A stretch of 64,000 bases of DNA from a virus: the IMG/VR virus record IMGVR_UViG_3300020452_000548, positions 1-64,000 of that record. The stretch is one strand, 5' to 3'. The notes beneath the pieces are model-generated. The model saw nothing but the letters and a program-made list of their open reading frames with translations, did no database searches and had not been told where the DNA came from. The translations under genes and the position numbers were made by a program. Each line of letters begins with the position of its first letter. Position 1 is the first letter of the stretch. This document shows positions 2,399 to 62,923 of the stretch, piece by piece.

Positions 2399-5300
2399 AT
2401 GTCGGATGAGTTAGTAAGAAGGAGAACAGAAACTTTACTCTCCGCACTTACTGGTGCTGATTATGACATAGACCTATACAAGGAAGAATTGGGTGTTGTT
2501 GATTCACCTCAAGATGCAGCTACTCTTGCAGTAGCTTCAGACCCGCCACCATATTCAATGAGAGATTTGGATAACCCGATGGATCCTTCAACGATGGTTA
2601 TCCCGCAAGACATGAATGCCTACCTTAGCGGTCATACAAAGATTTCAACGAGTTATGCAGGTGATTGGCCTGAAGCTGATATAGACAATAGATTTGGAAA
2701 ACATCATCCATTTCATCCCGAATCAAATAGCTGTCCTCTATTGCATGGTGCAGTTCATGGTAGCCCCATGTATGCCGAACACATTCTTGGATTCATTAAC
2801 CAGTTAGGCGATAATCGAGAAGCAGAAAGGAGAATCAGAAATGATGTTAGGCCAATCTTTGACATTATGGGCGATCCTACTGAATCTATGTTAGACCTTT
2901 ACAACATAGATAGAAGTCGTTTTGGCGAGCTTTCTGATGAAGGATACATTGAGAATAAGAAAACCGAGCTTACAAATGACTTTGGTTTGCTATCCTACTT
3001 GTTTGGCTTAGAGTATCAAACATCTCAACAGCGTGACTCATTCATGGATTTGATGAGTAGGTTAGGAGAAACAGAAGATGGTTCTCCCGAAGCTAAAACG
3101 ATATACAACAAGTTAGCTGAAAAGACAGGCGTATCATGGGGCAGGGCATTACGCAATTGGAGAGATAGATTCACGCCTTTGGCTTCATGGTGGATGCGAC
3201 CTGCTGATAAATCTGGGCCTGTTGAAGCAGGGGCTGATGCCTCAGCTCCAGATAGGCATCACAATTCACCTTGGAATCTAAGCGAAGAAGGGATAGTACC
3301 TAATCATAATCACCATTGGTGGCAACCATTCCTATATTGGGGTGGTGTAGGTCGAGATATTGGCTCTTTGAAAACAATGTTTTCTGAAAGCTACTCAAAG
3401 ATATTCAACGGTTCTTGGCTTGGAGATATGCTATTTGACGGAATACCCTTGATGGGTAGGCATTCGATTGCAGGTTCTCACTTCCCAATGGCTGCTAATA
3501 CTGAAGCAGGTCAAGGCGAGTTAGCTGGTGTTGTATCATCTGACTCAATGTCCGATTTAGATTTTGAAAGAAAGCGAGCTAATTGGAGTGGTGCTGCATC
3601 ATTCCATCACCATCTGCATCCTTCTGAGATACAATCTCAAGGCTCAATGATGGAGATACCGCATAGTGCCTACATGATTGCACCATTTGGTAGAGCTATG
3701 ATGAATGTTGGAGAGCATGGTGCGCCTCTTGCACAGTTTATTGGTATGAGTCATCCAAACTCTAACCCTGATTATCACAAGCTTCACAATTCTTTCTTTG
3801 CAGAAGCTGATAAGGCTTTGACTAGAGAAGCTATGCGACTTGCGGGTATAGTAAATCAGCAATTAGGTTCGGAAGTATTGATTGGAAGTCTAAGTGAAGA
3901 TGCTTGGAGTGATGTTGAAGCTAATACCGTAGCAAGAGGCAACATACAGCAATTGATGGTCGCTGCGAATTATTCACTAATGAAGTATGGAGATGCAGGT
4001 GGTCATTCAGTAATGCCCTTAGCAGACCTTAGTTCTGGGCAACTATCATCACAAGATGGAACATTAGGCCCTGTTGCCCCTACATCAATGGGGGTTGTTC
4101 CACCAATATTCAATACAGGCAATACCGATGCTTGGGGTCATAGAATGCCCGCTACATTGATTTGGTCTGACGATCCGACTACCGGGATAACTTTCTCATT
4201 AGCTGAACAGCCATTTACAATTATGCAAAGAACGGCTCATGAGGGTCATGTTCGTATGATAGACCCTGCATATAGCAAGAAACCTATTCAAACTAAAGAT
4301 GAGGACATTAGATTACTAACATCAAATCACATGGGTTATCCTTCTCTCGTTACTGATTTGCATAAATCGGATGATGATTATGAGCCAACGGGCGTGTTTG
4401 GTAAGAAGCTCATTACACCAGCTCATGTGGTGAAAGATATAGATGATTTGACTACATTGAAAGGATTTAGCGGTGATTGGATTGTTCAACACAAACCATC
4501 AGGTGAGCGTATGCTTATTGAGAAAAGGGGTAAAAGCATAGAACCCCGTGTTCCAAATACCGTATCTAAGGATTTGAAAGATATGAAAGGTGATTTTACC
4601 CTTGATGCGTATTTGGATGATGAAACATTGAATGTTGTTGATTTGTTGGTGCATAAAGGAACGGACTTATCCTTTGAACCATTAGAAGATAGAATCAATG
4701 TTTTGAGAACATTATACCATTCAACAGATAATATCCACTTCCCCGCACCTTCTAATTGTGTTAATTCAGATGATGAAGGACTGGTAAAGGCAATCGCTTC
4801 TTTTGATAGGGGCGAGTTCTTAATCCGAGATGCTACATCTACATTCATCAAAGAGAAGGAATTGCACCCCAAGTGGGTATTATTCGCCAACGATGATATT
4901 TCTAAATCAAAAATATACCCTCCTTTACCAGAAGTAATGGTCAAAGGAAATACCGTAATCTTGGAATATCCTGAAATCCTATCTCCAGTCAAAGTAATGT
5001 TGGCTAAAGATGACGATGGAATATACATTGATACTTACGAAGGGCAACCTCATTTGGTAAAACAAGCTCAATCTCAAGAAGTCCTTTGGACACCACCTGT
5101 TGCATTCTTGCTGAAAGAAGGCGGAGCTGGTGGTGGTGATGGCGGGGGTGGCGGTACAGGAATGGTATCTTCAACCACCGAAGGAACATACCAACCCGTT
5201 CATTCAGTAGCTACAAAGCGAAAAAAGCGTAAGCTTGTTGAAAAAGCACCTGCAATAATTGATGATGAAGAGGAAGATAGTGTTCATCACATGATGGGTC

Positions 5301-5812
5301 ATGTTAGAGAGGCAATAGATGATGCTGAAGAATCTCTTAGCTCAGAAGAGTTAGAAGAGAAGGTTGAGGGTTTGAAACATGATCACTTGCTAAGATTTGG
5401 TGGCGAATACGGCATTGAGCAAACGGAAGATAACAAATGGACTTTGAATGAAGCTATTGATGACGACATAGCCGATACTACTGTTGTTGAAAAGTTTGCA
5501 TTTCCTCGAATGAATAGAGCTTCATCCGATGGTGGAGCTTGGTCGGGTATGCAAGCAGACATTACAGCACCTATGGGTGCAACAGAAATAACTGACGAAA
5601 ACAATACCACATTTGCTGACCCTAAAAATGAAGATAGGGAAGCTGATGAGATAGATATTCCTAACCTTAAATTAGACCCTTCTTCTGAGGTTGAACAACC
5701 ACAAATTGAGTTTGAAGGCGAGAAAGTGATTATGAGAATACCAATCAAAGAAAAAAATGAAAAAAATGCAGATTTAGAGGCACAGCCTACGATTCGCACG
5801 GATTCGGTGTAA
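2399..5812 (+). CDS. 1137-aa head-region protein with DNA-ligase-like nucleotidyltransferase domain
   Basis: Start ATG with GAGGTGA 4 nt upstream. Residues 1 to about 640 show no family I know (His-rich patches, TWEEN-like acidic stretches absent). Residues about 680-860 align by eye with ATP-dependent DNA ligases: motif I as K699-PSGER (ligases have KxDGxR), motif III as LDAY 735-738 (usual LDGE), motif IIIa around LNVVDLLVHKGTDLSFEPLE followed by DRINVL, motif IV as EGLVK 793-797, and a motif V-like FIKEK 816-820. The nucleotide-accepting Lys is kept while the Asp of motif I and Glu of motif III are changed. A Gly-rich hinge (about 905-922) and an acidic tail follow. The gene sits directly ahead of the protease, so the product may be packaged or bound to the portal or DNA. 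Homology to ligases is fairly likely; activity is uncertain. Confidence 0.75.
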   Translation: MSDELVRRRTETLLSALTGADYDIDLYKEELGVVDSPQDAATLAVASDPPPYSMRDLDNPMDPSTMVIPQDMNAYLSGHTKISTSYAGDWPEADIDNRFGKHHPFHPESNSCPLLHGAVHGSPMYAEHILGFINQLGDNREAERRIRNDVRPIFDIMGDPTESMLDLYNIDRSRFGELSDEGYIENKKTELTNDFGLLSYLFGLEYQTSQQRDSFMDLMSRLGETEDGSPEAKTIYNKLAEKTGVSWGRALRNWRDRFTPLASWWMRPADKSGPVEAGADASAPDRHHNSPWNLSEEGIVPNHNHHWWQPFLYWGGVGRDIGSLKTMFSESYSKIFNGSWLGDMLFDGIPLMGRHSIAGSHFPMAANTEAGQGELAGVVSSDSMSDLDFERKRANWSGAASFHHHLHPSEIQSQGSMMEIPHSAYMIAPFGRAMMNVGEHGAPLAQFIGMSHPNSNPDYHKLHNSFFAEADKALTREAMRLAGIVNQQLGSEVLIGSLSEDAWSDVEANTVARGNIQQLMVAANYSLMKYGDAGGHSVMPLADLSSGQLSSQDGTLGPVAPTSMGVVPPIFNTGNTDAWGHRMPATLIWSDDPTTGITFSLAEQPFTIMQRTAHEGHVRMIDPAYSKKPIQTKDEDIRLLTSNHMGYPSLVTDLHKSDDDYEPTGVFGKKLITPAHVVKDIDDLTTLKGFSGDWIVQHKPSGERMLIEKRGKSIEPRVPNTVSKDLKDMKGDFTLDAYLDDETLNVVDLLVHKGTDLSFEPLEDRINVLRTLYHSTDNIHFPAPSNCVNSDDEGLVKAIASFDRGEFLIRDATSTFIKEKELHPKWVLFANDDISKSKIYPPLPEVMVKGNTVILEYPEILSPVKVMLAKDDDGIYIDTYEGQPHLVKQAQSQEVLWTPPVAFLLKEGGAGGGDGGGGGTGMVSSTTEGTYQPVHSVATKRKKRKLVEKAPAIIDDEEEDSVHHMMGHVREAIDDAEESLSSEELEEKVEGLKHDHLLRFGGEYGIEQTEDNKWTLNEAIDDDIADTTVVEKFAFPRMNRASSDGGAWSGMQADITAPMGATEITDENNTTFADPKNEDREADEIDIPNLKLDPSSEVEQPQIEFEGEKVIMRIPIKEKNEKNADLEAQPTIRTDSV

Positions 5813-5849: not shown

Positions 5850-5873
5850 CCATTGAATAACGATAGTCTGTCA

Positions 5874-7214
5874 ATGACAACCGCAGAAGCTGTGTTACAA
5901 CCCTCCCTTAAGTGGAGTGCAGTAGGTTCAGATTTCATTCTGAAATCACAGGTTGGTGGCGATCTATACATCGCTGGATATGCAAGTGTAGATATGGTAG
6001 ATAAGCAGGGTGACAGGATTCCCGGTGAGGCTTTGAAAAAGGCATTTGAGAAGTTCATGGATAACAAAGCGTTTAGAAATGTCCAGCTTGCTCATAGCGG
6101 AATACAGGTTGGAGAGGTTGTAGCCGACCACCAAGATTCACAAGGTCGTGTGTGGAAATCCGAAGTGGATGATCACGGCCTCTTTGTCGTTTGTAAGATA
6201 CGAAGCGACATACAGAAGGCAAGAGAGGTGCAGAACCAAATTAGGGATGGCGACCTACGAGCCTTTTCAATAGGAGGGCAAGCATTGTTCCGTGTATCAA
6301 AACATACACCAGAACATGGAAGCCACCGTGAGATTACCGAGCTAGAATTGCATGAGGTTACTCTATGCAAGAAAGGGATAAATCCTGAAGCTCGATATAC
6401 AATCCTAAAGATGGATGAATCTGAAATAGTAAAAGGAAGTGAAAAAGTGACAGAAAGTGAAGCATTGACTGAAATAAGAGATGGACTAGCCCGTGTGCTA
6501 AAACACATGGATGATGGATCATCGGTAGCAAAGACAGAAACTGAGAACAATGATGCAGTAGCATACATTGATACTCTTGAGAAGTTTGCCCATGAGCAAG
6601 GAATTGACCTCGATAAGCTACGAGGACATTTCGGACTTGAAAAGGCATACTTAGCAGGTGTAGATGGTAACAGCGGCCACACCCATAGGGGTCAGGGCGA
6701 TGAAATTGGTAGCGGAGAAGATGCTTCCGAGCCTTCATATCCATCTCTTGCAGCACCGGGCGGTAACAAATATGTTATCAAGCAACCCGGAGTATCCAAC
6801 ATGGCTTACAACAAACCATCTGGAAACAGAAATGTAATCAAATCCCGCAGAAGCAAGCCATCTGGTGAAATTACACCAGCAGGTCTTGAGAAGGGATACA
6901 GGGCATACGCCAGTCTAAGAGATGAAGAAGCTCTCAAAGACTTGGTAAAGTCTGACTGGGAGTCCCGCTACGATGCTGAAACAGCAAGAGCTTTGGCGGT
7001 TCAGAAATCAAAAGATTACTCAGGGCAAATTGACGCTCTAAAGAGTGAAATCGCAAATCTAAGAACAACTAACAGCGAGATTCAGAAATCTGCTGTTGTT
7101 CAACCAACAGATATTCGAGTCCCCACGCATGAAGAATATGCAGCTATGGGTACAGACCTTGATGGCTGGAGAGCCGTTGAGGACTTAGCACGGAGGGCTG
7201 TAAGGGGCAACTGA
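5874..7214 (+). CDS. HK97-type prohead maturation protease (S78) fused to scaffold domain
   Basis: 446 aa from ATG 5874; a TTG at 5853 is in frame but lies in promoter-like sequence without SD. The protease domain spans about residues 10-170: AGYASVDMVDKQGDRI, the catalytic His in NVQLAHSG (His 74), and the catalytic Ser in RAFSIGG (Ser 132), followed by LELHEVTLCKKGINPEA, all typical of the S78 family. The rest (about 180-446) is a long, charged region with a coiled coil (about 370-410) that fits the scaffolding delta-domain known from fused protease-scaffolds. It would process the head shell from inside and then digest itself. The major capsid gene follows after 41 nt. Confidence 0.9.
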   Translation: MTTAEAVLQPSLKWSAVGSDFILKSQVGGDLYIAGYASVDMVDKQGDRIPGEALKKAFEKFMDNKAFRNVQLAHSGIQVGEVVADHQDSQGRVWKSEVDDHGLFVVCKIRSDIQKAREVQNQIRDGDLRAFSIGGQALFRVSKHTPEHGSHREITELELHEVTLCKKGINPEARYTILKMDESEIVKGSEKVTESEALTEIRDGLARVLKHMDDGSSVAKTETENNDAVAYIDTLEKFAHEQGIDLDKLRGHFGLEKAYLAGVDGNSGHTHRGQGDEIGSGEDASEPSYPSLAAPGGNKYVIKQPGVSNMAYNKPSGNRNVIKSRRSKPSGEITPAGLEKGYRAYASLRDEEALKDLVKSDWESRYDAETARALAVQKSKDYSGQIDALKSEIANLRTTNSEIQKSAVVQPTDIRVPTHEEYAAMGTDLDGWRAVEDLARRAVRGN

Positions 7215-7255
7215 TTGTTCCTTAGAATACGGAGATAAAAATTGAGGTGAAAAAA

Positions 7256-8425
7256 ATGAGTGGATCAAGAGGATACATTAGAACAATTGAAGATATGGAA
7301 CGCCTGTACTACGGTGCAGGTGCTGGTGATAATGCGTGGGCATATAGTGGAACAGACCTTCTCAAGGCTGATTCTCCGCTAATGAGTACCACAGCAGGTA
7401 CTTACCAAGCAATTTTTGGCCGAAAGGTATGGTCGCAACTCAACCAAGAGTTCAACGCCTTTTCAATTCTGCCAAAGAAGCCATGGGAGAAGTCTGGATG
7501 GAGAGTCGTCACAGCCAAGCCTAACGCAGGTGCAGTAGGTGGCGGGCTTCCTGAGAACGGAACACTACCAGATACAATCAAGCCTACCTTTGCTCATGTA
7601 AGCGACAAACCACGCACAGTAGCTCACACATTCGATCTGAGCGAAACTGCTATGTTCCTTGCAGACAAAGATGACGGTCTTGGAGATGCAAGAGCTGTTA
7701 TGAAGATGGAGATGGCTAAGCATCACGCTGAGGTCATCAATAAGATGCTTCTAAGCGATGTAAGCAATCGTTCTACTACTTTGAATGACTTCGAGTCATT
7801 GGATCGCTGTCTTTCAGCAACCAACATTGAAACTACAAGCTTCAGCGATGTAGCTGCGGGCGACCACAAGCAATACAACATTGATAGGGCAGACGATGGT
7901 TCTTCCCAGTCTTGGTATGATTCCAATGTGGATGCGGGTACTACATCAGCTCAAAGGCCACTAACTTTGAACATCCTTGACGGAATGTTCCGAAGTGTGT
8001 GGGAGCGTGGTGGTCAGCCAAAGGTTATCCTAACTGGCTACGATACTCTTGAGAAGATTCAACAACTTCTCCAGCCTCAGCAAAGATTTACTGAGATGAA
8101 GAGAGTAGTTCCCGGTGTGAATGGTGTAAAGGGTGTTCCCGGTATGGAAGCCGGATTCATCGTAGCTACCTACAACGGTGTTCCTCTAATTCCTTCTAAA
8201 GATGTAGTCGAAGATGGTGGCGGTCTAAGTCGCCTTTACTACATGGATACTGATTATCTATACTTCTGCACAGCAAAACCAACTCTCTATCATGAGAGTG
8301 GTATCGAAACTGGCGATCCATTCGGAATCAACAGGCTCGGTCAAATGGGAATGTTCCACACAATGGGCGACCTATGGCAACTGTTTTACGGGGCGCATGG
8401 AAAAGTGAGGGACTTGAGCGCATAA
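7256..8425 (+). CDS. major capsid protein, HK97 fold
   Basis: 389 aa from ATG 7256 with a strong GAGGTGA 6 nt upstream; the in-frame GTG at 7247 is part of that site. The gene follows the S78 protease directly, as in HK97-like viruses, and the length is usual. The N-terminal helix region (IRTIEDMERLYY), the extended middle with QAIFGRKVWSQL, FNAFSILPKKPWEKSGWR, the central GMFRSVWERGGQPKVILTGY segment and the C-terminal YYMDTDYLYF section match the pattern of HK97-fold capsid proteins of archaeal tailed viruses. Assignment rests on this pattern and on synteny. The leader ATACGGAGATAAA ahead of the SD recurs before the next gene. Confidence 0.85.
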   Translation: MSGSRGYIRTIEDMERLYYGAGAGDNAWAYSGTDLLKADSPLMSTTAGTYQAIFGRKVWSQLNQEFNAFSILPKKPWEKSGWRVVTAKPNAGAVGGGLPENGTLPDTIKPTFAHVSDKPRTVAHTFDLSETAMFLADKDDGLGDARAVMKMEMAKHHAEVINKMLLSDVSNRSTTLNDFESLDRCLSATNIETTSFSDVAAGDHKQYNIDRADDGSSQSWYDSNVDAGTTSAQRPLTLNILDGMFRSVWERGGQPKVILTGYDTLEKIQQLLQPQQRFTEMKRVVPGVNGVKGVPGMEAGFIVATYNGVPLIPSKDVVEDGGGLSRLYYMDTDYLYFCTAKPTLYHESGIETGDPFGINRLGQMGMFHTMGDLWQLFYGAHGKVRDLSA

Positions 8426-8461: not shown

Positions 8462-8830
8462 ATGGCAAACACAAATCTAACAGAAGCAAGCTGCTCAGTA
8501 GTTCTTGATTTAGGACTATGGGCTGGAACGAGAGATGGTTCAACCTCATGGTTGAATGGAATAGCAGGTGTATCATCTGGTGATGCAGAAAACGGACTGA
8601 AGCTACTTGTAGTGGATCTAGTTCAAGCATCAACGGCAGCCTGTGAGTTCGACATAACAGATACAGGAATTACTGGCGTTAGCGGAACAAGAATCTTGGC
8701 TTTCCTTGGTGCAACCAATCCCGGCACAAGTCCGGCTTTGGCTACCGATTACGAGCTTAACAGCACTACATCCATTTCATGGACAGCTGCTGCGGCCGAT
8801 ACCGTAAGAATGACTGTGCTGTATGCTTGA
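8462..8830 (+). CDS. small beta-rich capsid-associated protein (decoration protein candidate)
   Basis: 122 aa, ATG with GAGGTGA 7 nt upstream, preceded by a leader (ATATGGAGATAAAG) that resembles the one before the major capsid gene. The sequence alternates Thr/Ser/Val/Ala-rich strands with Gly turns and ends in SWTAAAADTVRMTVLYA, a single beta-barrel or sandwich pattern. Two further proteins nearby (9406 and 9943) end similarly (IRMVIIYE, LTVYISVTGG). Position after the capsid gene and the shared leader suggest a head decoration or stabilising protein made in high amounts; this is inference. Confidence 0.7.
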   Translation: MANTNLTEASCSVVLDLGLWAGTRDGSTSWLNGIAGVSSGDAENGLKLLVVDLVQASTAACEFDITDTGITGVSGTRILAFLGATNPGTSPALATDYELNSTTSISWTAAAADTVRMTVLYA

Positions 8831-8839
8831 GGTGAGCCA

Positions 8840-9409
8840 GTGGCTCTAACCTTGAAATATGCAGGTGGGAAGGCTTACACCGAGCTATCAATAAATGGTG
8901 TTCGGTATGGCTTCGCAAGAGGCGTTAGCAGGGATGATATTCCCGATTGGTGGATAGAACAAGAGATACTACCTGCTATTGCTAACGGCACTACAATGTG
9001 GGTCGTATCTGGGGCAACCCCAAAATCACAAGGCAAAGAGATGATCAAAGCTCTTCAAGATGCAGCCAAGAAAGCTGAACCTGTAGCTGAGCCAACTCCT
9101 GAACCTGAACCCGAACCCGAACCCGAACCAGAACCCGAACCCGAACCTGAGCCAGTCGTTGAAGAACCAACTACTGTAACAAGTGAGGACTTAGTACCGG
9201 AAGTTCCAGAAATAGTAAGTGAAGAAACTACTCTAACTGCTGACGATGTGACTGATGAGATGCTAATGGGAGCTGGATTCTCGGCAGGTATGACAAGGGC
9301 GCAGATGCAGAATTGGTGTGGCTCAAGAGGAATAGCTACCGTTAATACCGACACGAAAGCATCACTAACTGGAAAAGCCCGCCAATATTTAGCGGGGGCT
9401 TCTGAGTGA
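8840..9409 (+). CDS. virion protein with Pro-Glu repeat and SAP-like C-terminus
   Basis: 189 aa, GTG start with GAGGTGA 4 nt upstream. Residues 1-75 form a compact domain (GGKAYTELSINGVRYGFARG at the start). Residues about 83-110 are a run of PEPEPE dipeptides, which would be a stiff, acidic spacer. The C-terminal 45 residues (MTRAQMQNWCGSRGI ... TKASLTGKARQYL) fit the helix-loop-helix of SAP-type DNA-binding domains, although weakly. Small spacer-linked proteins at this place often take part in head completion. The next gene starts within its stop codon (GTGA). Confidence 0.7.
   Translation: MALTLKYAGGKAYTELSINGVRYGFARGVSRDDIPDWWIEQEILPAIANGTTMWVVSGATPKSQGKEMIKALQDAAKKAEPVAEPTPEPEPEPEPEPEPEPEPEPVVEEPTTVTSEDLVPEVPEIVSEETTLTADDVTDEMLMGAGFSAGMTRAQMQNWCGSRGIATVNTDTKASLTGKARQYLAGASE
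9098..9154 (+). repeat. tandem hexanucleotide repeat (GAACCC/GAACCT) coding Pro-Glu
   Basis: About nine near-perfect 6-bp units inside the 189-aa gene, coding alternating Glu and Pro. The third positions vary only C/T/A, so the repeat is kept at protein level. Such tracts change length easily by slippage. Confidence 0.8.
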
Positions 9410-9891
9410 CCGATAATTTCACGGACATTGATGATGGCGATGGTCGCTACGCTTCAAGACAAAGAATCAACCGGAGGGTTGTGAGTTTTGACTTATCGGG
9501 TAGTAGTGTATCCGAAACCATACAGCTCAATGGTAAGATTGGAAGAATCGTCTTAGATCCAAGCCGAGCTACTTCTAATGGTTCTGTAACTTCATCATCA
9601 GGGTCTATGACTTTTTCAATGGATATTGAGGATTCAGGTAGCACCGAATACACTTACTGTAATGCAGTAAGTAGCTTGGACTTCAGAACAGCAAGTAATA
9701 CACCTTTGCACTTTCAAGTGGCGGAAGGAGCTAACACCGATACAGCAGGTGTTCATTTCACCGTTACCAGTCCGGGTAGTGTAGCTGCATCATGGAATGG
9801 TTTGGTCTGCGGGGCTTTGAAAATCACTTTAGCTACGAGTGCAGGTGCATTCACAGGCGGAACAATAAGAATGGTCATTATTTACGAATAA
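9406..9891 (+). CDS. small beta-sandwich virion protein
   Basis: 161 aa, GTG start overlapping the previous TGA (GTGA), with GGGGGC upstream. Dominated by Ser/Thr/Val/Gly-rich beta strands (RVVSFDLSGSSVSETIQLNG, FSMDIEDSGSTEYTY, ALKITLATSAGAFTGG) and ends in TIRMVIIYE, much like the 122-aa protein at 8462. It is probably a related beta-barrel that decorates the head or joins head and tail; no enzyme motif. A T-rich stretch after the stop suggests transcription ends or is reduced here. Confidence 0.7.
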   Translation: MTDNFTDIDDGDGRYASRQRINRRVVSFDLSGSSVSETIQLNGKIGRIVLDPSRATSNGSVTSSSGSMTFSMDIEDSGSTEYTYCNAVSSLDFRTASNTPLHFQVAEGANTDTAGVHFTVTSPGSVAASWNGLVCGALKITLATSAGAFTGGTIRMVIIYE

Positions 9892-9895
9892 GCCG

Positions 9896-9902
9896 TTTTT
9901 TT
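9896..9902 (+). terminator. oligo-T terminator candidate
   Basis: Seven consecutive T residues right after the stop at 9891 and just before a TATA-like promoter. Archaeal intrinsic termination uses T-runs without needing a hairpin. No stable hairpin is visible here. Confidence 0.4.
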
Positions 9903-9911
9903 CAAAATCCA

Positions 9912-9925
9912 TTAAATAGGATTGT
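9912..9925 (+). promoter_or_regulatory. TATA-like promoter, TTAAATAGGATTGT
   Basis: Lies in the 51-nt gap before the ATG at 9943, with its first base 31 nt upstream. Shares 13 of 14 bases and the exact spacing with the element at 336-349. No SD sequence precedes the ATG, as expected for a leaderless message. Confidence 0.55.
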
Positions 9926-9942
9926 CCCATGAATAGTTCTGT

Positions 9943-10266
9943 ATGGCACTAACTGTCGAGCAACTTGGAAGAACAAATGTAAGTGGTAATCGCTTGTCGG
10001 TTGCCTTGAAGATAACACCTGATTCGTCATGGCTTGCCGCAGGTGAGGAATTGATTCTCACAGATTATGTGGCTAATATTGATACGGTTCATATTGAATC
10101 TGATTTGGGTGGATACGCATGGGCCTATGACAGATCGGAAAATAAACTGCTTGCCTACTATGCAGACTACGATGCAGGTGCAGATGGAGCTTTGATAGCA
10201 GTAGCTAATGGAGTGGATCTATCAGCACTCACCGTATATATCTCGGTCACAGGTGGGCGAGCCTAA
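9943..10266 (+). CDS. small beta-rich virion protein
   Basis: 107 aa; ATG 31 nt downstream of the TATA-like element and without SD, so probably the first codon of a leaderless mRNA. The sequence has alternating strands (RLSVALKITPDSSWLAAGEE, DLGGYAWAYDRSENKLLAYY, LTVYISVTGG) and probably folds as one beta-barrel, similar in kind to the products of 8462 and 9406. No motif for catalysis or binding. Likely a head or connector accessory protein by position; function unknown. Confidence 0.7.
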   Translation: MALTVEQLGRTNVSGNRLSVALKITPDSSWLAAGEELILTDYVANIDTVHIESDLGGYAWAYDRSENKLLAYYADYDAGADGALIAVANGVDLSALTVYISVTGGRA

Positions 10267-10280
10267 GCGGGGCTTGCCTT

Positions 10281-10586
10281 ATGGGACTTCAAGTAGGTGA
10301 AATAAATCTCCAAGAAGCATTGGAGATAGAGAAGAGGCGTGGTAAGCGTCTTGCTGAGCTGACTACTGGTTCAGCTCGTTCCGATGAATCCATCTTCAGT
10401 AAGAAGAATATGGAGAAAAACTCTCATTCAGTCCGGGTTCAAACTAGAGGCCGAGAAAGATTTGATATTCAGAACATAGGTGCAGGTACAAGATGCACCG
10501 ACTGTGGACTACTACATTTCTGTTGGACTCCCGCCTGTGCAGGGTGTGGCGGTAAGATGGACTACAATATGGGGAAGTATTCATGA
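10281..10586 (+). CDS. zinc-ribbon protein
   Basis: 101 aa, ATG 14 nt after the previous stop. Residues about 1-60 are charged and helical (LQEALEIEKRRGKRLAEL near the start). The C-terminal part has CTDCGLLHFCWTPACAGCGG (from about residue 74): two CxxC pairs that fit a zinc ribbon. Zinc binding is inferred from spacing. The following gene, also Cys-rich, begins in its stop codon (ATGA), so the two are probably co-translated. Role in the particle unknown. Confidence 0.7.
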   Translation: MGLQVGEINLQEALEIEKRRGKRLAELTTGSARSDESIFSKKNMEKNSHSVRVQTRGRERFDIQNIGAGTRCTDCGLLHFCWTPACAGCGGKMDYNMGKYS

Positions 10587-10927
10587 GCAAAGACGATGTA
10601 AAGAAGTTCTTCGGCCCAAATTATTTTGATCCGTTGAGGGATTTGAAAAATCAAGCTATGGGTGGAACAGATAATTGCGAAGATTGCGGTATGCCCAAGA
10701 GAGGCGGGGATAACGAGCTGATGTTCGCAGACGATGAAATGTGCGATTGCTCTTTTGAAAAGGCATGGGCGGTTGCTAAAGCTGCACCCTGTCCTCAATG
10801 TGGTGCTGAAACAGGCGAGCGTTGCGGTAAAGATCCAAGAAAGCCCGCTAACAAATGCAAATCAAGGCGAAGGTCTATGGAATCGGGGCGTGACTTCGCA
10901 TCAGTTCCGAGTACATGGAAGGAGTGA
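10583..10927 (+). CDS. two-zinc-knuckle protein with FEKAWAVAKA motif
   Basis: 114 aa, ATGA overlap with the previous gene. Cys pairs NCEDCG (about residue 32) and EMCDC (about 53), then FEKAWAVAKA (about 58-67), then APCPQCGAETGERCG and a Lys/Arg-rich end with another Cys (NKCKSRRR). The last part resembles the CPxCGxxxGxxC ... R zinc fingers common in phage proteins. The FEKAWAVAKA piece is nearly the same as segments at the N-termini of the proteins at 46842 and 47363, which are otherwise unrelated; it may be a docking or packaging peptide. Confidence 0.7.
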   Translation: MSKDDVKKFFGPNYFDPLRDLKNQAMGGTDNCEDCGMPKRGGDNELMFADDEMCDCSFEKAWAVAKAAPCPQCGAETGERCGKDPRKPANKCKSRRRSMESGRDFASVPSTWKE

Positions 10928-10940
10928 TGGAGGGTGAAGG

Positions 10941-12779
10941 ATGCCAAGAACATTCAATCCCGGCCATAGACCAAGCCAACCGTTATTTCCAGACGCATTG
11001 GTTTATTCAACAGTAGCTAAGGTAGTTCAGTACCTTCAGCTACCTGATACAGAACCTGTAGCTCTTGGTGGAGATACATCAATATCAGGCACTACTATTC
11101 GAATACCTATTGCAGGTGCGGATTTCAGAAGGTGGGGTTTTGCTTCTGGTGATACTGTAAAGGTCTATGATGATGTTAATGCTAAAGGTATTGATTACAT
11201 TTTGAATGGAACACAATCAGCTGGTTCAAGTGGGTTGGTATGGTTGTTAGCACCAGAATCCCAAAATAACTCATTCACTACTGCTAACAATGCCTATGTT
11301 CAACCTGCAAGCATATTGACTGATAGTAATGAGAGAGGCATTACAAAATCGGGCGTTGAGAATCTAATCAAGAAAAGACAGGATTACATTGATACGATTA
11401 CAAGAATGGCTTGGCGACCCCGTATTGTAGTGGATGAATACAAAAACTTCACAACTTTCAAACCGTATAGAAGGAGATACTATACTGACTATGTAGGTGC
11501 TGTCTATCTAAATCATAGAAGCATTAGGCAGATTCTCAAAATGGGTGTTTGGCAAGGCGATTACTATCGTGAGCTTGCAGCGGGTCGTATGGAGCTGTAT
11601 GTAGATAAGACGCATAAGATGGCTGATACCGATAAAATATTCCTATGCCCTAATGTAGCTCATGTTGGAACACTACAAGCAGCTCAATCATCTGCTACAA
11701 CTACTACTAAATGGGTTAGAGATTTTGGTAAGAAATCAGTAGCTGAAGAAATTGGTGCGTTAATCAATGAAGATTCAGATACCAGTAAAGCTGCAATACA
11801 GATTGGAAGTCTTACTCAAAATGGTTCGGCTTTGAATGTATCAAACGAATACTTAGCTACAGCAAATAGCGATGAGGGTGATGGGGTAGTTTGCATTAGT
11901 AGTATGAGAGAAGGCGAAGATGGTATTAACAGCACTATTGCAGTTAGTCAAAGAAATAGCTTTACATTCGATAAGGGTAACGAAATCGCTGTTGATCTTC
12001 TAACAGAAACAGGAACGCCTACTACTTCCTTTACTACAACCGATGCAAGCGGTATGGTTCAAGGTTCTGGATTGTATTACATTGAAGGGTTAAATGGTGC
12101 AAATCATGTAGCATTGTGTTCAAGAGATGATGATAGTATAACAATTACCACCGATTTAACCTCAAGTTTCGCCTCAAATGTGGGGGGATTAAGCAATATT
12201 ACCCTAGTTAAGGGGGGTAGTGGATACAGTTCTGCACCAACTATCTCTATTTCGGGGGGTAGTGGAGTAAATGCGGCAGCTACCGCAACAGTCACTAATG
12301 GGTCTGTAACCAGTATTACAATCACAAATGCAGGTTCGGCTTACCTATCAACAGATAGTAACATAGCAGTTACCTTTAGTGGCGGTGGTGGATCGGGAGC
12401 TTCTGCTACTGCGGTTGTAGGCAAGATAAAGCAATACAGATTCAAAACAGATGTTAGTGATGAAGAAAGGCAAAAGGATTGGTGGTCTATTGAGGATAAC
12501 GGTGCAATCATGTTCAACAATCAATATCCCTTCTTTGAGAATCATAGCTTGAAAGTATCATACATTTATGGCGAGAGGTATTTGGATAAGGTCATTGAGG
12601 ATGTTTGCACTAAATTAGTAGTAAGAGATATTCTAATGTCTGACGATTACACATCTCTATTCCCAGAAGGAACGCAGAATGTTTCACTTGATGCTAAAAT
12701 CCAAAAGTTAGATGAAGAAACAAAGAGATTGCTAATACCCTATCAAGAAACCATTATCGTAGCAGGGGTGGGTGGTTGA
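10941..12779 (+). CDS. head-tail connector or adaptor-like protein with GSGY repeats
   Basis: 612 aa, ATG with GGAGGGTGA 5 nt upstream. Residues about 1-250 include an SGxENLIKKRQDYIDTITRM helix and a Trp-Arg-Pro/Tyr-Arg-rich section (FKPYRRRYYTDYVGAVYL); a long beta-rich insert follows. Residues about 415-495 hold Gly-rich repeats (VKGGSGYSSAPTISISGG, TNAGSAYLSTDSNIAVTFSG) of a kind found in many tail and fibre proteins and again in the 2605-aa tail protein (37247). The C-terminal part (about 540-610) is alpha-helical and recalls gp6/adaptor proteins. The connector role is inferred from place and shape, not from a clear family match. Confidence 0.6.
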   Translation: MPRTFNPGHRPSQPLFPDALVYSTVAKVVQYLQLPDTEPVALGGDTSISGTTIRIPIAGADFRRWGFASGDTVKVYDDVNAKGIDYILNGTQSAGSSGLVWLLAPESQNNSFTTANNAYVQPASILTDSNERGITKSGVENLIKKRQDYIDTITRMAWRPRIVVDEYKNFTTFKPYRRRYYTDYVGAVYLNHRSIRQILKMGVWQGDYYRELAAGRMELYVDKTHKMADTDKIFLCPNVAHVGTLQAAQSSATTTTKWVRDFGKKSVAEEIGALINEDSDTSKAAIQIGSLTQNGSALNVSNEYLATANSDEGDGVVCISSMREGEDGINSTIAVSQRNSFTFDKGNEIAVDLLTETGTPTTSFTTTDASGMVQGSGLYYIEGLNGANHVALCSRDDDSITITTDLTSSFASNVGGLSNITLVKGGSGYSSAPTISISGGSGVNAAATATVTNGSVTSITITNAGSAYLSTDSNIAVTFSGGGGSGASATAVVGKIKQYRFKTDVSDEERQKDWWSIEDNGAIMFNNQYPFFENHSLKVSYIYGERYLDKVIEDVCTKLVVRDILMSDDYTSLFPEGTQNVSLDAKIQKLDEETKRLLIPYQETIIVAGVGG

Positions 12780-13034
12780 GTGGATGCGTTTTTTAATGAA
12801 TTGGCAAAGGCTACTGAAGAATTAGTAGTAGCTATGGAAAATTATGTATCGAAGATGCCTATGATTCGTGAGAAGTTAATACAAACCGAGAAGCAATCAT
12901 CAATTGAAGATGGGTTGGAATACACCGATGTTGAGATAGAAGGTATAGTAGATAGGCAGATAGAACACCATCCTTTCACTAACACCTTAAGAGATGCTAT
13001 CAAGCCCTTTGAAGGGGTGATGCAGGGTGACTGA
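12780..13034 (+). CDS. small helical protein between connector and fibre genes
   Basis: 84 aa, GTG start immediately after the previous TGA. Mostly helical with an amphipathic N-terminal stretch (FFNELAKATEELVVAMENYV). No motif. The stop overlaps the start region of the fibre gene (GTG at 13027), pointing to translational coupling. Could be a head-tail joining or chaperone-like protein; unknown. Confidence 0.65.
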   Translation: MDAFFNELAKATEELVVAMENYVSKMPMIREKLIQTEKQSSIEDGLEYTDVEIEGIVDRQIEHHPFTNTLRDAIKPFEGVMQGD

Positions 13035-16000
13035 CGCAATCGCAATTCTCGTCAATATTCTTGACGCTAATTGGTCTAAAGCACCTAAGCCATCTATACA
13101 AGATATTGCTAACATAGACAAGGGCGATGGTAAGAGAGTAAGGCTACAAGATAAAGATGTAATCAGAATCTTTGAAACAGCTCACAATGAATCACAACCA
13201 GAGCTTTTGTATGATTTCGTCAATGAGCATATCAACCTCACAATAGACATTAGAACAGTCAAGAGCAGAAAGCGTTTGTCTGAAATAAGAAATGAGGTTA
13301 GAAGAATACTTCATGGGTTTAGGAAGGGAGATAACAAAAACATTGATCGTGTTATCTTCAAGACTCGAACCGACTTATCGGACAGGGCAAAGAAGCTGTT
13401 TAGATACACAATGCAATTTGAGGTAGTCACCTTTAGCCTATCAGCTGGTAGTGATGTATCATTCATCAATCCTTCAACGAATGACATTGTTGGTGCAGAT
13501 GTATGGCAAAGTTATGATCCTCAACTGACCGAGTTTGCTAATCTTACACCTACAAACAATCACGCTGTTGTAGCTATTGATGGAGTTTGGACTACTCAAG
13601 AGTTAGGCGATATTACTTCCGTCACAGCCGGAACAGGTTTGACGGGTGGTGGCTCAAGCGGTGCAGTTACCTTGAATGTAAGTGGAATTACAGTATCTGA
13701 GATAGCAGCAAATAGCCTTCAGATTAGTTCTGAGTCGTTTGCAGACAATGATACTTCATTGATGACTTCTGCCGCCATACAAGATAAGATTCTGAGCTAT
13801 GGCTACACTACACAAGTAGGCGATATTACAGGTGTGACCGCAGGGACTGGCCTATCAGGTGGTGGCTCATCGGGTTCAGTTACTCTCAATCTTGATTTGA
13901 AAGACGAAGATGATATGTCGTCTGACTCAGCTACCCATGCTTCATCTCAACAATCAATAAAGGCGTATGTTGATACAAAAGTTACAGATTTGGTTGCATC
14001 TGCTCCGGGTGCGTTAGATACACTAAATGAATTGGCCGCTGCAATCAATGACGACTCATCATTTCATACTACAATTACCAATCTTGTTGGGACTAAGTTA
14101 GCAAAATCAAGTAATCTTTCTGACCTTACTAATGCGGGAACAGCTCGGACTAACTTAGGTGTTGATGCAGCAGGTACTGATAACTCAACTAATGTGACTC
14201 TCATAACATCTAGTCATGACTATCTATCAATAAGCAGCCAAGCAATCACATTAGGTCAGATTGATGTTAGTGATGATACGAATCTTGCTGTTTCATCCCC
14301 AATCACTTTGACGGGCGATACGGTTGGACTTGCAGATCCGGTAACATTATCTCAACTTGATGAAGCTTCAGATGCTACCGATGATAAGATATTGCTTTGG
14401 GATGAATCCGCTTCTGCTTGGAAATACATGACTCTTGATAATCTACAAGACTCAATAGATACATCGTCAGCTAATACAGATACGACTTACACGCTCGCTG
14501 CATCTGATAGCTCAAGTGATGCTTTGATTGATTTGATAGCAGGTGGTAGTGGTTCTGGAACGGTATCGGTGAAATTGGTTGCGGGTTCTAACATCACTAT
14601 AACGCCCGATACTTCAACAACACCCGATCAGATAACCATAGCTTCAGCTCATCCCAACATTAGTGCAGCCAGCTCAGTAGATAATAGTGGTAGGACTTAC
14701 ATTCAAGACATTACTCTTGATTCAGACGGCCATGTAACAGGCATAGCTTCAGCTACTGAATCCGTAACAGATACAGATACTACTTACTCAATTAGTGCCG
14801 TTGATTCTGGTGATGATGCAATTATCCGCCTTACAGCAGGGGGTAGTGGAACGGGTAATGACGATATTACGCTTGAAGCAGGTACTAACATCACCATAAC
14901 CCCAAGCGGAGATACAATCACAATAGCCACCAATGCAGCTGATATTGAAGGCGTTGTTGCAGGGACTGGTTTGACGGGTGGTGGAACATCAGGCACGGTG
15001 ACTCTCAATGTTAGTGGATTGACGGTATCGGAATTGGCCGCCAACAGTATTCAACTTAGCTCAGAATCTTTTGCTGATAATGATACGAGCTTAATGACTT
15101 CTGCCGCTATACAAGACAAGATATTGTCTTATGGATATAGCACCGATTCTAACTCATTTAGGACAGTCACCGCAGGTGGCAACACATTAGGGGCATCAGA
15201 AACATTGGCCTTTACTGCCGGAACGGGGATTACTATCGCTGAAAGCGGTGGTGCAGTAACAATTACTAATTCTGTTAGCGATACTAATACATTCAGACCC
15301 ATTACGGCAGGTGGAAATACATTAGGTTCTTCTGAAACATTGGCTTTTACGGCAGGATCTAACATAACGATTAGTGAAAGTAGCGGTGCAGTAACTATTG
15401 CATCAACAGATACGAATACACAATTAACACTACATGATGAAGATGATTTTTCATCAAATAGTGCTACTGCTGCCGCAAGTCAGCAATCAATCAAGGCTTA
15501 TGTTGATTCACAGGTATCTGGAATTGTAGATACTGCACCTGCCGCATTGAACACATTAAATGAGTTAGCAGCCGCATTGAATGACGATGCTTCTTTCTCA
15601 ACAACAATTACCACTAGCATCGGTACTAAATTAGCAAAGTCAAGCAATCTTTCGGACTTAGCTAATGCGGGAACAGCTCGAACAAACTTAGGATTGGGGG
15701 CTGCTGCGGTAAAGGGCGTTGCTACTGATGGTTCGGGCGGTGTTGCCGATGGTGAGGGTGATTTGGTTACGGGTAATGCTGTGTTTGATTATATCGCAGC
15801 TCAAAACTTCGCTACATCAGGCTCATCTAACTTTGTTGTAGGGGATATAACAGGTCAAGCTGCAATTACAAGCGGATTAGCAAGCACCGATGAGTTTGTG
15901 ATTAGCGATGCAGGTGTTCTTAAAAAAATGGATACATCTGTATTGCAGACCTATATGCAGAACAATCTAACATTTACCACTAATACAAACACTACTTATA

Positions 16001-19000
16001 CTGCCGGAACGGGGCTTTTGTTGAATGGTACTGTATTTTCTCTCAATGACCCTGCTTCCGTATCTCAATTGACGGATGATGGTGCGGGAAGCACTACAAT
16101 TGTTGATGATGCAGATCAGATTTACATTTGGGATAACAGCGAAGGTGATTGGAATTACATTAGAATAGATGACCTTCAAGACAAGATAGATACAAACACA
16201 GTCAGAACAGTAACTGCGGGGGGCAATACTCTTGGGGCATCAGAAACCCTTGCCTTTACTGCGGGTTCTAATGTAACAATAACTGAAAGTGCAGGTGCAG
16301 TAACAATCGCATCAACAGATACTAACACCACATATAGCGTTGGTGACGGGGGATTAACGCAGAATAACTTCACTAATACTCTCAAGACTAAGTTAGACGG
16401 TATAGCTACAAGTGCGAATAACTACGCTATCTCATCCGATTTGTTAGATGAAGATGACATGGCGAGCAATAGTGCTACAAAAGTAGCATCTCAACAGTCT
16501 ATCAAGACATACATAGACAATAAGACGGCAAGTATTGTTGATTCTGCACCAGACGCATTAGATACTCTAAACGAGCTTGCAGCCGCTTTGAATGATGATG
16601 CGTCATTCTCAACAACAGTTACAACCAGTATAGGTACTAAGCTTGCTAAATCAAGCAACCTTTCTGATTTGGTCAATGCTGGAACGGCACGGACTAATTT
16701 GGGATTAGGCACGGCTGCGGTAAAGGCAGTAGCTACAGATGGTTCATCGGGCGTTGCAGACGGAGAAGCAGGTTTAGTTACAGGTAATGCAGTATATGAT
16801 TACATAGATGCTCAAGGTTTTGGTTCGGGTGCGGGAGATATTACTGCTGTCGTAGCTGGAACAGGGCTATCGGGCGGGGCAACATCTGGATCGGCTACGC
16901 TTAATGTAAGTGGATTAACCGTGTCCGAGTTTGCTGCTAATAGCATCCAGCTCAGCTCAGAATCTTTTGCAGACAATGACACTTCTGTAATGACTTCCGC
17001 TGCAATTGCAGATAAGATTGAATCATACGGATATTCTACTACTACGGGAGATATTACAGGAGTTACAGCCGGGACAGGATTATCCGGTGGAGGCAGTAGT
17101 GGTTCTGTAACATTGAATGTAAGTGGGATAACAGTATCTGAATTAGCAGGTGCATCTCTAACTACATCGTCAGAATCGTTTGCAGACAATGATACAACTC
17201 TAATGACTTCTGCCGCAATTAACGATAGAATAGAATCATTTGGTTATACTACAAATGCGGGTGATATTACTGGTGTGACCGCTGGAACAGGATTATCGGG
17301 TGGAGGGTCAAGTGGTAGTGTTACGCTTAATGTTGATTTGAAAGATGAAGATGACATGGCTTCAGACTCCGCAACACACGCAGCTTCTCAGCAATCAATC
17401 AAAGCGTATGTGGATGCAGAAGTATCTGGATTAGTCGCTTCAGCCCCCGGTGCATTAGATACCTTGAATGAATTAGCTGCCGCTATCAATGACGATGCAA
17501 GCTTCTCATCCACTATTACTACCAGTATTGGTACTAAACTCGCAAAATCAAGTAATCTATCGGATCTAGCCAATGCAGGTACGGCTCGAACAAACTTAGG
17601 ATTAGGCACAGGTGCGGTTTTAGATACTGCTGCGATAGCCGATGGGGGTTCGGGGTTAGCTACAGCAGATCAGATACATACATTTGTTACTGATTTCGGT
17701 TACACTACGAATACAGGAGATATTACTGCGGTAGTAGCAGGGACAGGACTTTCTGGTGGAGCTACGAGTGGGTCTGCAACCCTCAATGTTAGTGGGCTAA
17801 CAGTATCTGAGTTCGCTGCTAACAGTATTCAACTCAGTTCTGAGTCCTTTGCTGATAATGATACTTCTGTAATGACAAGTGCCGCAATTCAAGATAAGAT
17901 AGAGGCATACGGATACACAACCAACACAGGCGACATAACTGCTGTTGTAGCGGGAACGGGCTTATCGGGCGGGGCTACGAGTGGGTCTGCGACTCTCAAT
18001 GTTAGTGGCCTTACTGTGTCTGAATTGGCTGCAAATAGCTTACAACTCAGTTCTGAGTCTTTCTCAGATGACGATACGAGCTTGATGACCTCAGCTGCAA
18101 TTCAAGATAAGATAGAAGCATACGGTTATACTACGAATACAGGAGATATTACGGGTGTTGATTTAACCGTCACATCTCCGATTACAATTTCAAGTGAAAC
18201 AAACACAACATCTGGTTCATACTCGGCAACACTTGGTTTAGATGACCCTGCTAATCTATCTGAGCTTAATGAAAGCACGGATGCTACTGACGATAAGATT
18301 CTGCTTTGGGATGAGTCTGCCGGATCTTGGAAATACATGACGCTTGATAACCTACAAGATTCCATTGACACTACTGCATCGGGAGGGATTGGGGGTAGCA
18401 TCGCTAATACTCAGGTAGCGTTTGGAAGCGGAACGAACATTACAGGGTCATCCACTTTCTTCTATACTGATGCGACTAACACGCTCAATATAGCCAATGG
18501 TGCGGCAGCGGGAACGCTCACATCGGGTTCTCATAACTTGATATTGAGGAATAGTGCGGCAACAGGACACTCGAAAATCACAATTGCGTATGATAGTGTC
18601 GCAGCAGCTAATTCTCATATTGAATTAGAAACTGATGGTACGGGGAATGTTGAGATACATAAGGAGGGTGCGGTTGTTTTCAAACTACCTAACACAATAG
18701 GTTCTTCTGGTCAGATATTGAAAGTTCCATCAAGCGGTACTATCTTAGAATGGGGAGATTCGGGAACGACTTACTCAGCAGGTACTAACATCTCATTGAG
18801 TGGTACTACTTTCAATGTGGATGATGCTTTCTTAGTCAATAACGCTAACGATACAACATCAGGTGTAATTACTGCGGGCGGATTTACTACCGCAGGTTCG
18901 GTAACAATAGGCGGTCATGCGTTTGATGATATTGATATTGGTTCTGAGTTTGTTGATACTGATGACCATATTATGTCATCTGGTGCAATTAAGGAGAAAA

Positions 19001-29464: not shown

Positions 29465-30748
29465 ATGCCGAAGATACAGCTCATTAGAAGGGATAGCTCA
29501 ATTATCGAGTTAGATGCGAATACCATCACCTTTGATTTGAAAAGAAACACTACGGTTGCACCGATACCATTCTTAGGTCAGCGTTTTGGTATTGATACCA
29601 ACCTAACCGATGTAGGAATCAGCATAGGTGGAATAGTTACAGATGACGATAGCGAAGTATTGGGTACAGGGTCAGCTTTTACCATAGATCTATCTCAAGC
29701 TTCAGGAACAATCCCTAGCTCAACATGGTATGGGCAGTATTCAACATCATCAGGTGCATGGAACACAGTAAAAGCAGATTTAGACGGTGTTGAGATTTCA
29801 TTCAAATCAAAAGGGCAACTTGATGCAGGGCTAGGAGAAACTACTGCCATAAGGCTCGCCAACGGCACTACAACATCAAGTGTAGGAGATAGTATAATCG
29901 GTGTAAATATCAGCTCAACGACTACATCAGACTCTCTTGCTACTACTATTGTAAATGCACTCAATTCTGCAAGTATAACCATTGATGGTGCAACAACCGC
30001 CTTCACAACGGCCTTTTCCATATCTCAAGCCAAAGGCCAACAGATGAATAATTCATATTTTCACCAAACAGGCGATATAAGCACCGTCTATAATGGCGAG
30101 CAGATCTTAATCAAGAATAAATCAATAGGATCGGGCGGAGATGTTGCGGTTTCAATTCAAAAAGGCGTGAATGCAGGTAGTAATACATACGCTTTGGTTG
30201 ATGGTTCAAGAGCTAAATGGGATAAGTCGTTCTATGTTAGCAATATGACTGGTGGCGTTAATTCCAATAAAATGACAATGGGAGATAAGGTGCAAGAATT
30301 ACTGAATCTTGCTAATATGTCTGCGGGTGGTGCTTTACTCTCCCCAAATACACTAACGGGCGATGTAATTGATTTGCCCGATAGCGTTGCATCTTTTGAC
30401 GCATCAAGGTTCTTACAAATTGAAGATGCCGAAGTGGTGAAGAAGTATATCGTAGGTGTTCGAGTTCCTTATGAGTCAATAGCAAGTTCAAGCACAGGCC
30501 AAGAAGTATTGAGGCAATTCATAATACCCGCAGGGCCGGGAACAAACTATTCTGCCTCACAAAACACAAGAGAGTTTGACCCTGTGTCAATTGTAAATAA
30601 CGAAAAAGTGCGACCCAACCCATATTTGGAACAGGGTGTTGCATTACCTTGTACTCTTCTGACTTGGAATCCTTCATACGAAGCTGGCGATGGATTTTGG
30701 AGTTATGAATTGAGCTTGGCTGTTGTTGAGCAATTGGTCGGTATTTGA
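29465..30748 (+). CDS. distal tail or baseplate protein
   Basis: 427 aa, ATG with GGGGTG 8 nt upstream, next to the tape measure. Beta-rich throughout: the start (IQLIRRDSSIIELDANTITF) and the end (LEQGVALPCTLLTWNPSYEA, FWSYELSLAVVEQLVGI) form a core that may be a tube-like beta-sandwich, with a Ser/Thr-rich insert between. Position directly downstream of the tape measure is that of distal tail proteins. No precise family match seen. Confidence 0.6.
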   Translation: MPKIQLIRRDSSIIELDANTITFDLKRNTTVAPIPFLGQRFGIDTNLTDVGISIGGIVTDDDSEVLGTGSAFTIDLSQASGTIPSSTWYGQYSTSSGAWNTVKADLDGVEISFKSKGQLDAGLGETTAIRLANGTTTSSVGDSIIGVNISSTTTSDSLATTIVNALNSASITIDGATTAFTTAFSISQAKGQQMNNSYFHQTGDISTVYNGEQILIKNKSIGSGGDVAVSIQKGVNAGSNTYALVDGSRAKWDKSFYVSNMTGGVNSNKMTMGDKVQELLNLANMSAGGALLSPNTLTGDVIDLPDSVASFDASRFLQIEDAEVVKKYIVGVRVPYESIASSSTGQEVLRQFIIPAGPGTNYSASQNTREFDPVSIVNNEKVRPNPYLEQGVALPCTLLTWNPSYEAGDGFWSYELSLAVVEQLVGI

Positions 30749-30749
30749 G

Positions 30750-51113: not shown

Positions 51114-51821
51114 TCAAGACCGAGCCATTCTGACCCTTTCGCTCGCCATTTTCGTTTCGCTATTTAGAACCTCAGAAATACGGGTTGCTCGAATCTTACC
51201 TAAACCTACAATCTCCGTCAGCTCTTTGACTGATACTGAGCTAATCTCAGCTACAGACCCAAACTTCTCAAGGAGCTTGTGAGCTATGGCTTCGCTTGCC
51301 CCCGCAGCTCGTAGTGTATCCACCCTCATATCCTCAGAAGTGGTTTTTCTTAGAACACGATATGTGGATGATGAACCAAGCGTTCCATCCTTCTCAAATC
51401 TTTTACAGATGAATCGAGCTGCCGATGATCTATCGGGCAGGGTGATGATTTGTATGTCGTAGTCCGTGCAATACCTTGCTAAAGAGCCGACATAGCTTGA
51501 CCATGCCTGTTGGTATCTGATTTTCCTACCACTCTTCATGACTTGAGTAAGATACTGGTCAAGAGTACCCCATACCAATAGTATTGCATTGTTGTAGTTA
51601 TCATCCAGATTGTTGAGCTGTTGCTCAAGATGCCCACTCATCATGCTACCCATGTAGTCATGAATGCTCTTTGCTTCTATGCCTACGCTGTTGAATGCGT
51701 AGTCAGCAATCATGTTCTGCTTAGTCTTGTGATGCAGACCATCTTTCTTGTCAATATACTTCTTCACTAAGTCCTCTAATCCAGATCGCTCTCTATTATC
51801 AATAAACAATACTTTTGTCAT
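51114..51821 (-). CDS. XPF/ERCC4-type structure-specific nuclease with HhH domain
   Basis: 235 aa from ATG 51821, overlapping the dpdA stop (ATGA). The nuclease core shows FIDNRER (residues 6-12, the DxRE part), ADYAF (39-43, usual GDY), and IEAKSIHDY (48-56, usual VERKxxxDL), so the metal-binding Asp 8, Glu 11, Asp 40, Glu 49 and Lys 51 are kept while the usual Arg of VERK is Ala. A tandem helix-hairpin-helix follows (about 172-228, LLEKFGSVAEISSVSVKELT, EIVGLGKIRATRI). Archaeal XPF/Hef enzymes cut branched DNA; here it would resolve replication or recombination forks. No helicase domain is attached. Followed by a promoter for the next gene. Confidence 0.85.
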   Translation of the reverse strand: MTKVLFIDNRERSGLEDLVKKYIDKKDGLHHKTKQNMIADYAFNSVGIEAKSIHDYMGSMMSGHLEQQLNNLDDNYNNAILLVWGTLDQYLTQVMKSGRKIRYQQAWSSYVGSLARYCTDYDIQIITLPDRSSAARFICKRFEKDGTLGSSSTYRVLRKTTSEDMRVDTLRAAGASEAIAHKLLEKFGSVAEISSVSVKELTEIVGLGKIRATRISEVLNSETKMASERVRMARS

Positions 51822-62912: not shown

Positions 62913-62923
62913 ACATTTTCACC

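Follow-up and report, generated by a model that had tools for sequence, protein, structure and literature searches.

A degenerate, conserved DNA ligase fold in a head-module protein of uncultured tailed viruses, with an intact relative in a sister lineage

Head proteins that are trimmed by a protease and enter the cell have been described for T4, namely its internal proteins and Alt (PMC9958956), and for P1, namely DarA (PMC12810830). With respect to head gene organization, druskavirus HVTV-1 provides a comparison, as its head block (gp113-gp115) runs from the portal to the protease and the major capsid protein (MCP) with large proteins in between. The Aoguangviridae, in which the family B polymerase is in two pieces, have an ATP-dependent DNA ligase listed in their profile, and viruses of this type are uncultured (PMC10768690). 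The open-access literature that we searched contained no report that a tailed virus has a DNA ligase in its virion or among its head genes, which is weak evidence given that subscription papers lie mostly outside it. The view taken in the preliminary description of the present locus, that a ligase fold in a head-module protein is unusual among tailed viruses, is supported.

The stretch of DNA analysed here, referred to as the window, consists of the first 64 kb (64,000 nucleotides) of an 80,544-bp IMG/VR virus record and contains the following head genes:

2399-5812, plus strand: open reading frame (ORF) of a 1137-aa head-module protein with a degenerate ligase domain, found in relatives in the order portal, ligase protein, protease, MCP
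5853-7214, plus strand: head maturation protease (PHROG head maturation protease, E 2e-20)
7247-8425, plus strand: MCP of the HK97 type (PHROG major head protein, E 1e-51; 34% identity to the HVTV-1 MCP)

The 1137-aa ORF directly precedes the maturation protease, as had been noted before, and the HK97-type MCP follows. The order from portal to MCP was seen at 120 loci, some contigs entering this count as more than one locus, and was contradicted at none, the remaining loci being cut by the end of the sequence. A true absence of portal and terminase from the window genome was considered and rejected, because both genes are present in a near-identical record (G012, L168), immediately upstream of the point at which the window record starts, and the latter is thus simply cut there. 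HVTV-1 has a related MCP and the same order of portal, protease and MCP; its large head-block proteins, in contrast, have no detectable similarity to the family described here, and gp112-gp120 were rejected as homologues of the window protein on these grounds. Between portal and protease, HVTV-1 (L069) encodes a 1313-aa protein annotated as zeta toxin (8563-12504).

The structural half of the window also contains, further downstream, three very large ORFs (13027-21594, 30723-37247 and 37241-45064, encoding 2855, 2174 and 2607 aa). In addition, six small proteins of the record share a short motif like [SD]xF[ED][KRQ]AWxx[AV]K, often near the N-terminus and absent from 20 shuffles, at window positions 10754 and 46854 and at record positions 78447, 79069, 79692 and 80293 (L068), with one of the six carrying an FSKAW variant. 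This motif could be a sorting or capsid-targeting tag.

The preliminary description proposed a DNA-ligase-like nucleotidyltransferase domain at about residues 680-860 of the 1137-aa protein (window 4436-4978), and our comparisons of structures and of profiles bear this out, dividing the protein as follows:

2399-4366, plus strand: N-terminal domain, residues 1-656, mostly helical and of no known fold (AlphaFold pLDDT 81.7, pTM 0.83)
4367-4888, plus strand: degenerate ATP-ligase nucleotidyltransferase domain, residues 657-830 (Foldseek, Pfam, BLASTP to the intact ligase of locus L136, hhalign)
4889-5113, plus strand: residues 831-905, where the OB domain is apparently deleted and a weak post-OB remnant is seen (weak hhalign match, P 0.003 to 0.05)
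5246-5809, plus strand: acidic C-terminal region, residues 950-1137, with a net charge of -33

The full-length protein gave no match in sequence searches of Pfam and the PDB, a profile search of the PDB with the domain alignment returned only ankyrin noise, and tblastn found no relative in phage records. The domain alignment, with which 60 viral loci were gathered, has 32 members, of which 22 match Pfam DNA_ligase_A_M, more than match any other family (best E 0.0018); E 1.9e-4 was reached in the genome of one relative and 0.014 at best by the window protein itself, and the score of 15.5 bits lies below the curated PF01068 cut-off of 26.2. The AlphaFold model of the domain, based on the 32-sequence alignment, has a pLDDT of about 90 across its core, and the top Foldseek matches of this model among known structures were DNA ligases (E 6.8e-8, probability 1.00), with modest TM-scores (about 0.4) and a large rmsd that we attribute to multi-domain targets and to disorder in the N-terminal stretch of the model. 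Ligases and capping enzymes were also among the matches in a viral structure library. Profile-profile comparison (hhalign) connected the degenerate domain with intact head-module ligases (E 1.5e-15) and the latter with cellular ligases (E 3.9e-18); since the direct match between the degenerate domain and cellular ligases reached only P 0.0026, sequence homology depends on the intact family as the link between them. Chance origin of the ligase-like match is excluded, and residues about 657-830 are an ATP-dependent DNA ligase nucleotidyltransferase fold.

The first member of this intact family, L136, was found by a genome-collection scan on a contig that carries head genes of the window virus type and is binned in a Maricaulis MAG; being an archaeal-type virus contig in a bacterial MAG, it is probably misbinned. 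The 842-aa ORF that immediately precedes the protease and MCP genes on this contig encodes a complete ligase with the motifs EKYDGIR, LDAEL, FDIMSHDGEDHTDNPLRER, SEGVVIKD and PKWIKFKK, and shares 30% identity with the window domain (E 6e-18 in a single BLASTP comparison). Adding 17 further loci yielded 15 distinct intact proteins (lineage L136-L153, 841-848 aa) that exceed the Pfam cut-off (1.2e-29), with every catalytic residue present in 15 of 15. They belong to a lineage that resembles the Aoguangviridae and are encoded in the same order (portal, ligase, protease, MCP) as the degenerate protein, with which they share, in addition to the slot between portal and protease, a collinear stretch from a candidate K|[SA] boundary to motif V, whereas their catalytic residues are intact, their OB domain is present and their N-terminal domain is unrelated. 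In the ligase tree, the degenerate sequences are monophyletic (100/100) on a long stem (1.87), and degenerate and intact head-module ligases together are split from cellular and replicative viral ligases (100/99). The two kinds of head ligase thus share descent as well as their position between portal and protease; the tree is unrooted, and the direction from intact to dead is favoured because an active site, once lost, is unlikely to be regained in full.

Alignment to the intact and cellular ligases places the motifs of the window protein as follows:

4493-4510, plus strand: motif I, K699-PSGER (K[YF]DGIR in intact relatives), with the Asp lost and the Lys variable in the family
4601-4615, plus strand: motif III, LDAYL (LDAEL in intact relatives), with Glu changed to Tyr
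4640-4693, plus strand: motif IIIa, DLLVHKGTDLSFEPLEDR, the best preserved of the ligase motifs
4814-4831, plus strand: motif IV, E806-FLIRD-811 (EGVVIKD in intact relatives), with the Gly lost and Lys changed to Arg
4868-4888, plus strand: motif V, PKWVLFA 824-830 (PKWIKFKK in intact relatives), with both Lys lost

Motifs I, III and IIIa lie where the preliminary description had located them, while its motif IV (EGLVK, 793-797) and motif V (FIKEK, 816-820) were misassigned to segments neighbouring the true motifs. It was also right that the Asp of motif I and the Glu of motif III are changed, yet degeneration goes much further than it had noted. Among 80 aligned dead relatives (four more, which the extraction pattern missed, were excluded), the motif I Asp, the motif III Glu (Y, V or F in 79, a gap in one) and the second Lys of motif V are each found in none; the first Lys of motif V is replaced by L, R, H, C or T in 78 and is K in one and a gap in one; and in motif IV the Gly is lost in nearly all and the Lys is Arg in 79. 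When compared with ATP-dependent DNA ligases of PF01068, such as 4eq5 of Thermococcus sibiricus and human LIG1, the window protein retains the nucleotidyltransferase core, the motif order and motif IIIa, but is without the active-site residues of motifs I, III, IV and V, has apparently no OB domain and no ligase DNA-binding domain, and is fused to a new N-terminal domain within a head gene block. Beyond motif V, the alignment skips the OB stretch and picks up again, if at all, with a weak post-OB match, and the C-terminal OB domain therefore appears, at the level of sequence, to have been deleted.

The preliminary description had suggested that the protein might still seal the genome or transfer AMP, and a rebuilt active site that transfers AMP or GMP to a capsid or host target would be in line with the nucleophile K699 being retained in 56 of 80 relatives and with R810, D811 and motif IIIa being invariant or nearly so, as are D748, R765 and W826. 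The same lysine is, however, M in 22 relatives, R in one and Q in one. Free variation at K699 and at the motif III and IV positions among homologues had been named in the preliminary description as counting against its proposal, and this applies here as far as catalysis is concerned; the Asp, the Glu and both motif V Lys are lost, the segment that links motif III to motif IIIa is shorter, and the OB domain has apparently been deleted. We consider an active nucleotidyltransferase to be highly improbable, and AMP transfer or sealing by the window protein is unsupported. As judged from its residues, the ligase-like domain is instead a catalytically dead pseudoenzyme.

This pseudoenzyme is maintained and is not a decaying gene, since pairwise dN/dS across residues 657-905 is between 0.017 and 0.046 and falls below the value for the C-terminal part wherever a pair allowed both to be computed. 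The N-terminal domain was never found without the ligase-like domain (paired in 78 of 78), and its model had no match below E 0.9 among PDB structures. The possibility that the N-terminal part of the intact or the dead protein is a ligase DNA-binding domain was also examined and dismissed, there being no match. The ligase-like domain has a net charge of -15, which is a mild argument against plain DNA binding.

The domain is flanked by two potential processing sites that resemble a site in the MCP:

4364-4369, plus strand: K656-S657, where the ligase-like domain starts, a putative cleavage site for the maturation protease (59 of 59 nonredundant relatives have K-[SA])
5243-5248, plus strand: K949-A950, a further putative protease site that follows a Gly-rich linker (49 of 59 relatives have [KR]A)
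7364-7369, plus strand: MCP K40-A41, a putative site of this type at which the propeptide would be cleaved off (17 of 17 MCPs have K-[AS])

Among 13 conserved Lys columns of the dead family, K656 is the only one that always precedes A or S, and the stretch collinear with the intact ligase begins at K656|S657. It counts against processing that the second site has K or R and is conserved less strictly, and that in the intact lineage a Lys is kept ahead of the ligase but the residue after it varies. The K40 site of the MCP precedes the HK97 fold, and the HVTV-1 MCP has, by eye, K-A at the corresponding place; in HK97 itself, the mature capsid protein starts at Ser104 (PMC5701804). Because K656|[SA] and [KR]949|A bracket the domain and resemble K40|[AS] of the MCP, the maturation protease may cut out the ligase-like domain in the prohead.

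Here we propose that tailed viruses of marine archaea acquired a head-module ATP-dependent DNA ligase within their portal-to-capsid gene block, and that it was kept intact in one, Aoguangviridae-like lineage (841-848 aa) and became a dead, strongly conserved domain of the 1137-aa protein in the window lineage. Given the conservation of the sites and the position of the gene, we infer that the N-terminal domain most likely brings the 1137-aa protein into the prohead during co-assembly and that the neighbouring protease would cut at K656|S657 and K949|A950, leaving a pseudo-ligase of about 32 kDa inside the capsid with the DNA. In what is the weakest step of the proposal, this pseudo-ligase would most likely be a non-catalytic internal head protein that binds DNA or a partner, rather than an enzyme, while the active ligase of the sister lineage could act on packaged or entering DNA by sealing its nicks or ends. 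We regard this scenario, taken as a whole, as somewhat probable. The T4 internal proteins, Alt and P1 DarA, which are packaged in the head, trimmed by the prohead protease and enter the cell together with DNA, are functional analogues only and are not claimed as relatives by sequence; packaging and cleavage of the window protein are predictions.

A purely structural role in the head or at the portal vertex, with the domain never excised and not acting at the DNA, would likewise account for the invariable fusion to the N-terminal domain, for constraint in spite of catalytic death and for the acidic charge, but does not explain why the domain boundaries coincide with an invariant K|[SA] and with [KR]|A, nor why the fold is that of an intact DNA enzyme in the sister lineage; we consider this reading rather unlikely. 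The location next to the protease and the cleavage-like flanking sites would also suit an ejected effector, comparable to the T4 internal and P1 Dar proteins, that acts as a counter-defence decoy by titrating a nick- or ligase-related host factor. Related HVTV-1 has the zeta toxin-annotated protein in the same block, and an ADP-ribosyltransferase has been reported for this virus (PMC8651126). However, no partner is known and proteins in an arms race are less often conserved this strongly, which makes such a decoy improbable in our view. Relative to these alternatives, an internal head protein that is cut out by the protease and binds DNA or a partner remains our preferred reading.

Two genomes (G021, G022) encode, besides the head-module ligase, a separate replication-type ligase (516 and 520 aa) and a family B polymerase in two pieces. 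This second ligase shares the ATP ligase fold with the window protein, but is intact, is located away from the head genes and falls on the opposite side of the main split in the tree; an intact ligase was not found in the other records examined, many of which are possibly fragments. With regard to the host, a relative at 54% identity (L135) lies within a Poseidoniales single-cell assembly and the window genome encodes, by eye, a chaperonin of archaeal thermosome-like type; the hosts are probably Poseidoniales, which are marine archaea. Among 30 genomes of the family of this assembly, an ATP-dependent ligase was found in none and an NAD-dependent ligase in 29.

Elsewhere in its genome, the window virus encodes a 534-aa thermosome-like archaeal chaperonin, recognised by eye (L068, 6764-8368, minus strand). 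A DpdA-like protein (51818-52579 of the window, minus strand; E 1e-71) suggests 7-deazaguanine modification of the viral DNA, and two adjacent N6/N4 DNA methylases and a C5 cytosine methylase are encoded at 59905-63973 (minus strand).

Genome sealing is still a conceivable role only in the sister lineage, given its intact head-module ligase. We speculate that some marine archaeal tailed viruses package an active ligase, distinct from the replication ligase and processed with the capsid, that enters hosts with NAD-dependent ligases together with the DNA and seals the incoming genome, and that the window lineage has turned it into a non-catalytic head protein that binds nicks or ends. In this specific form, the idea is doubtful.

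Together, the data suggest that a DNA ligase is, or once was, a component of the particles of these viruses, with a ligase located between portal and protease in one group among the abundant marine archaeal viruses and a conserved dead descendant in another. The annotation 'DNA ligase' in Poseidoniales viruses may thus conflate two distinct genes, and the pair of intact and dead proteins offers a direct way to test the role of a ligase in a capsid and what stays useful once catalysis is lost.
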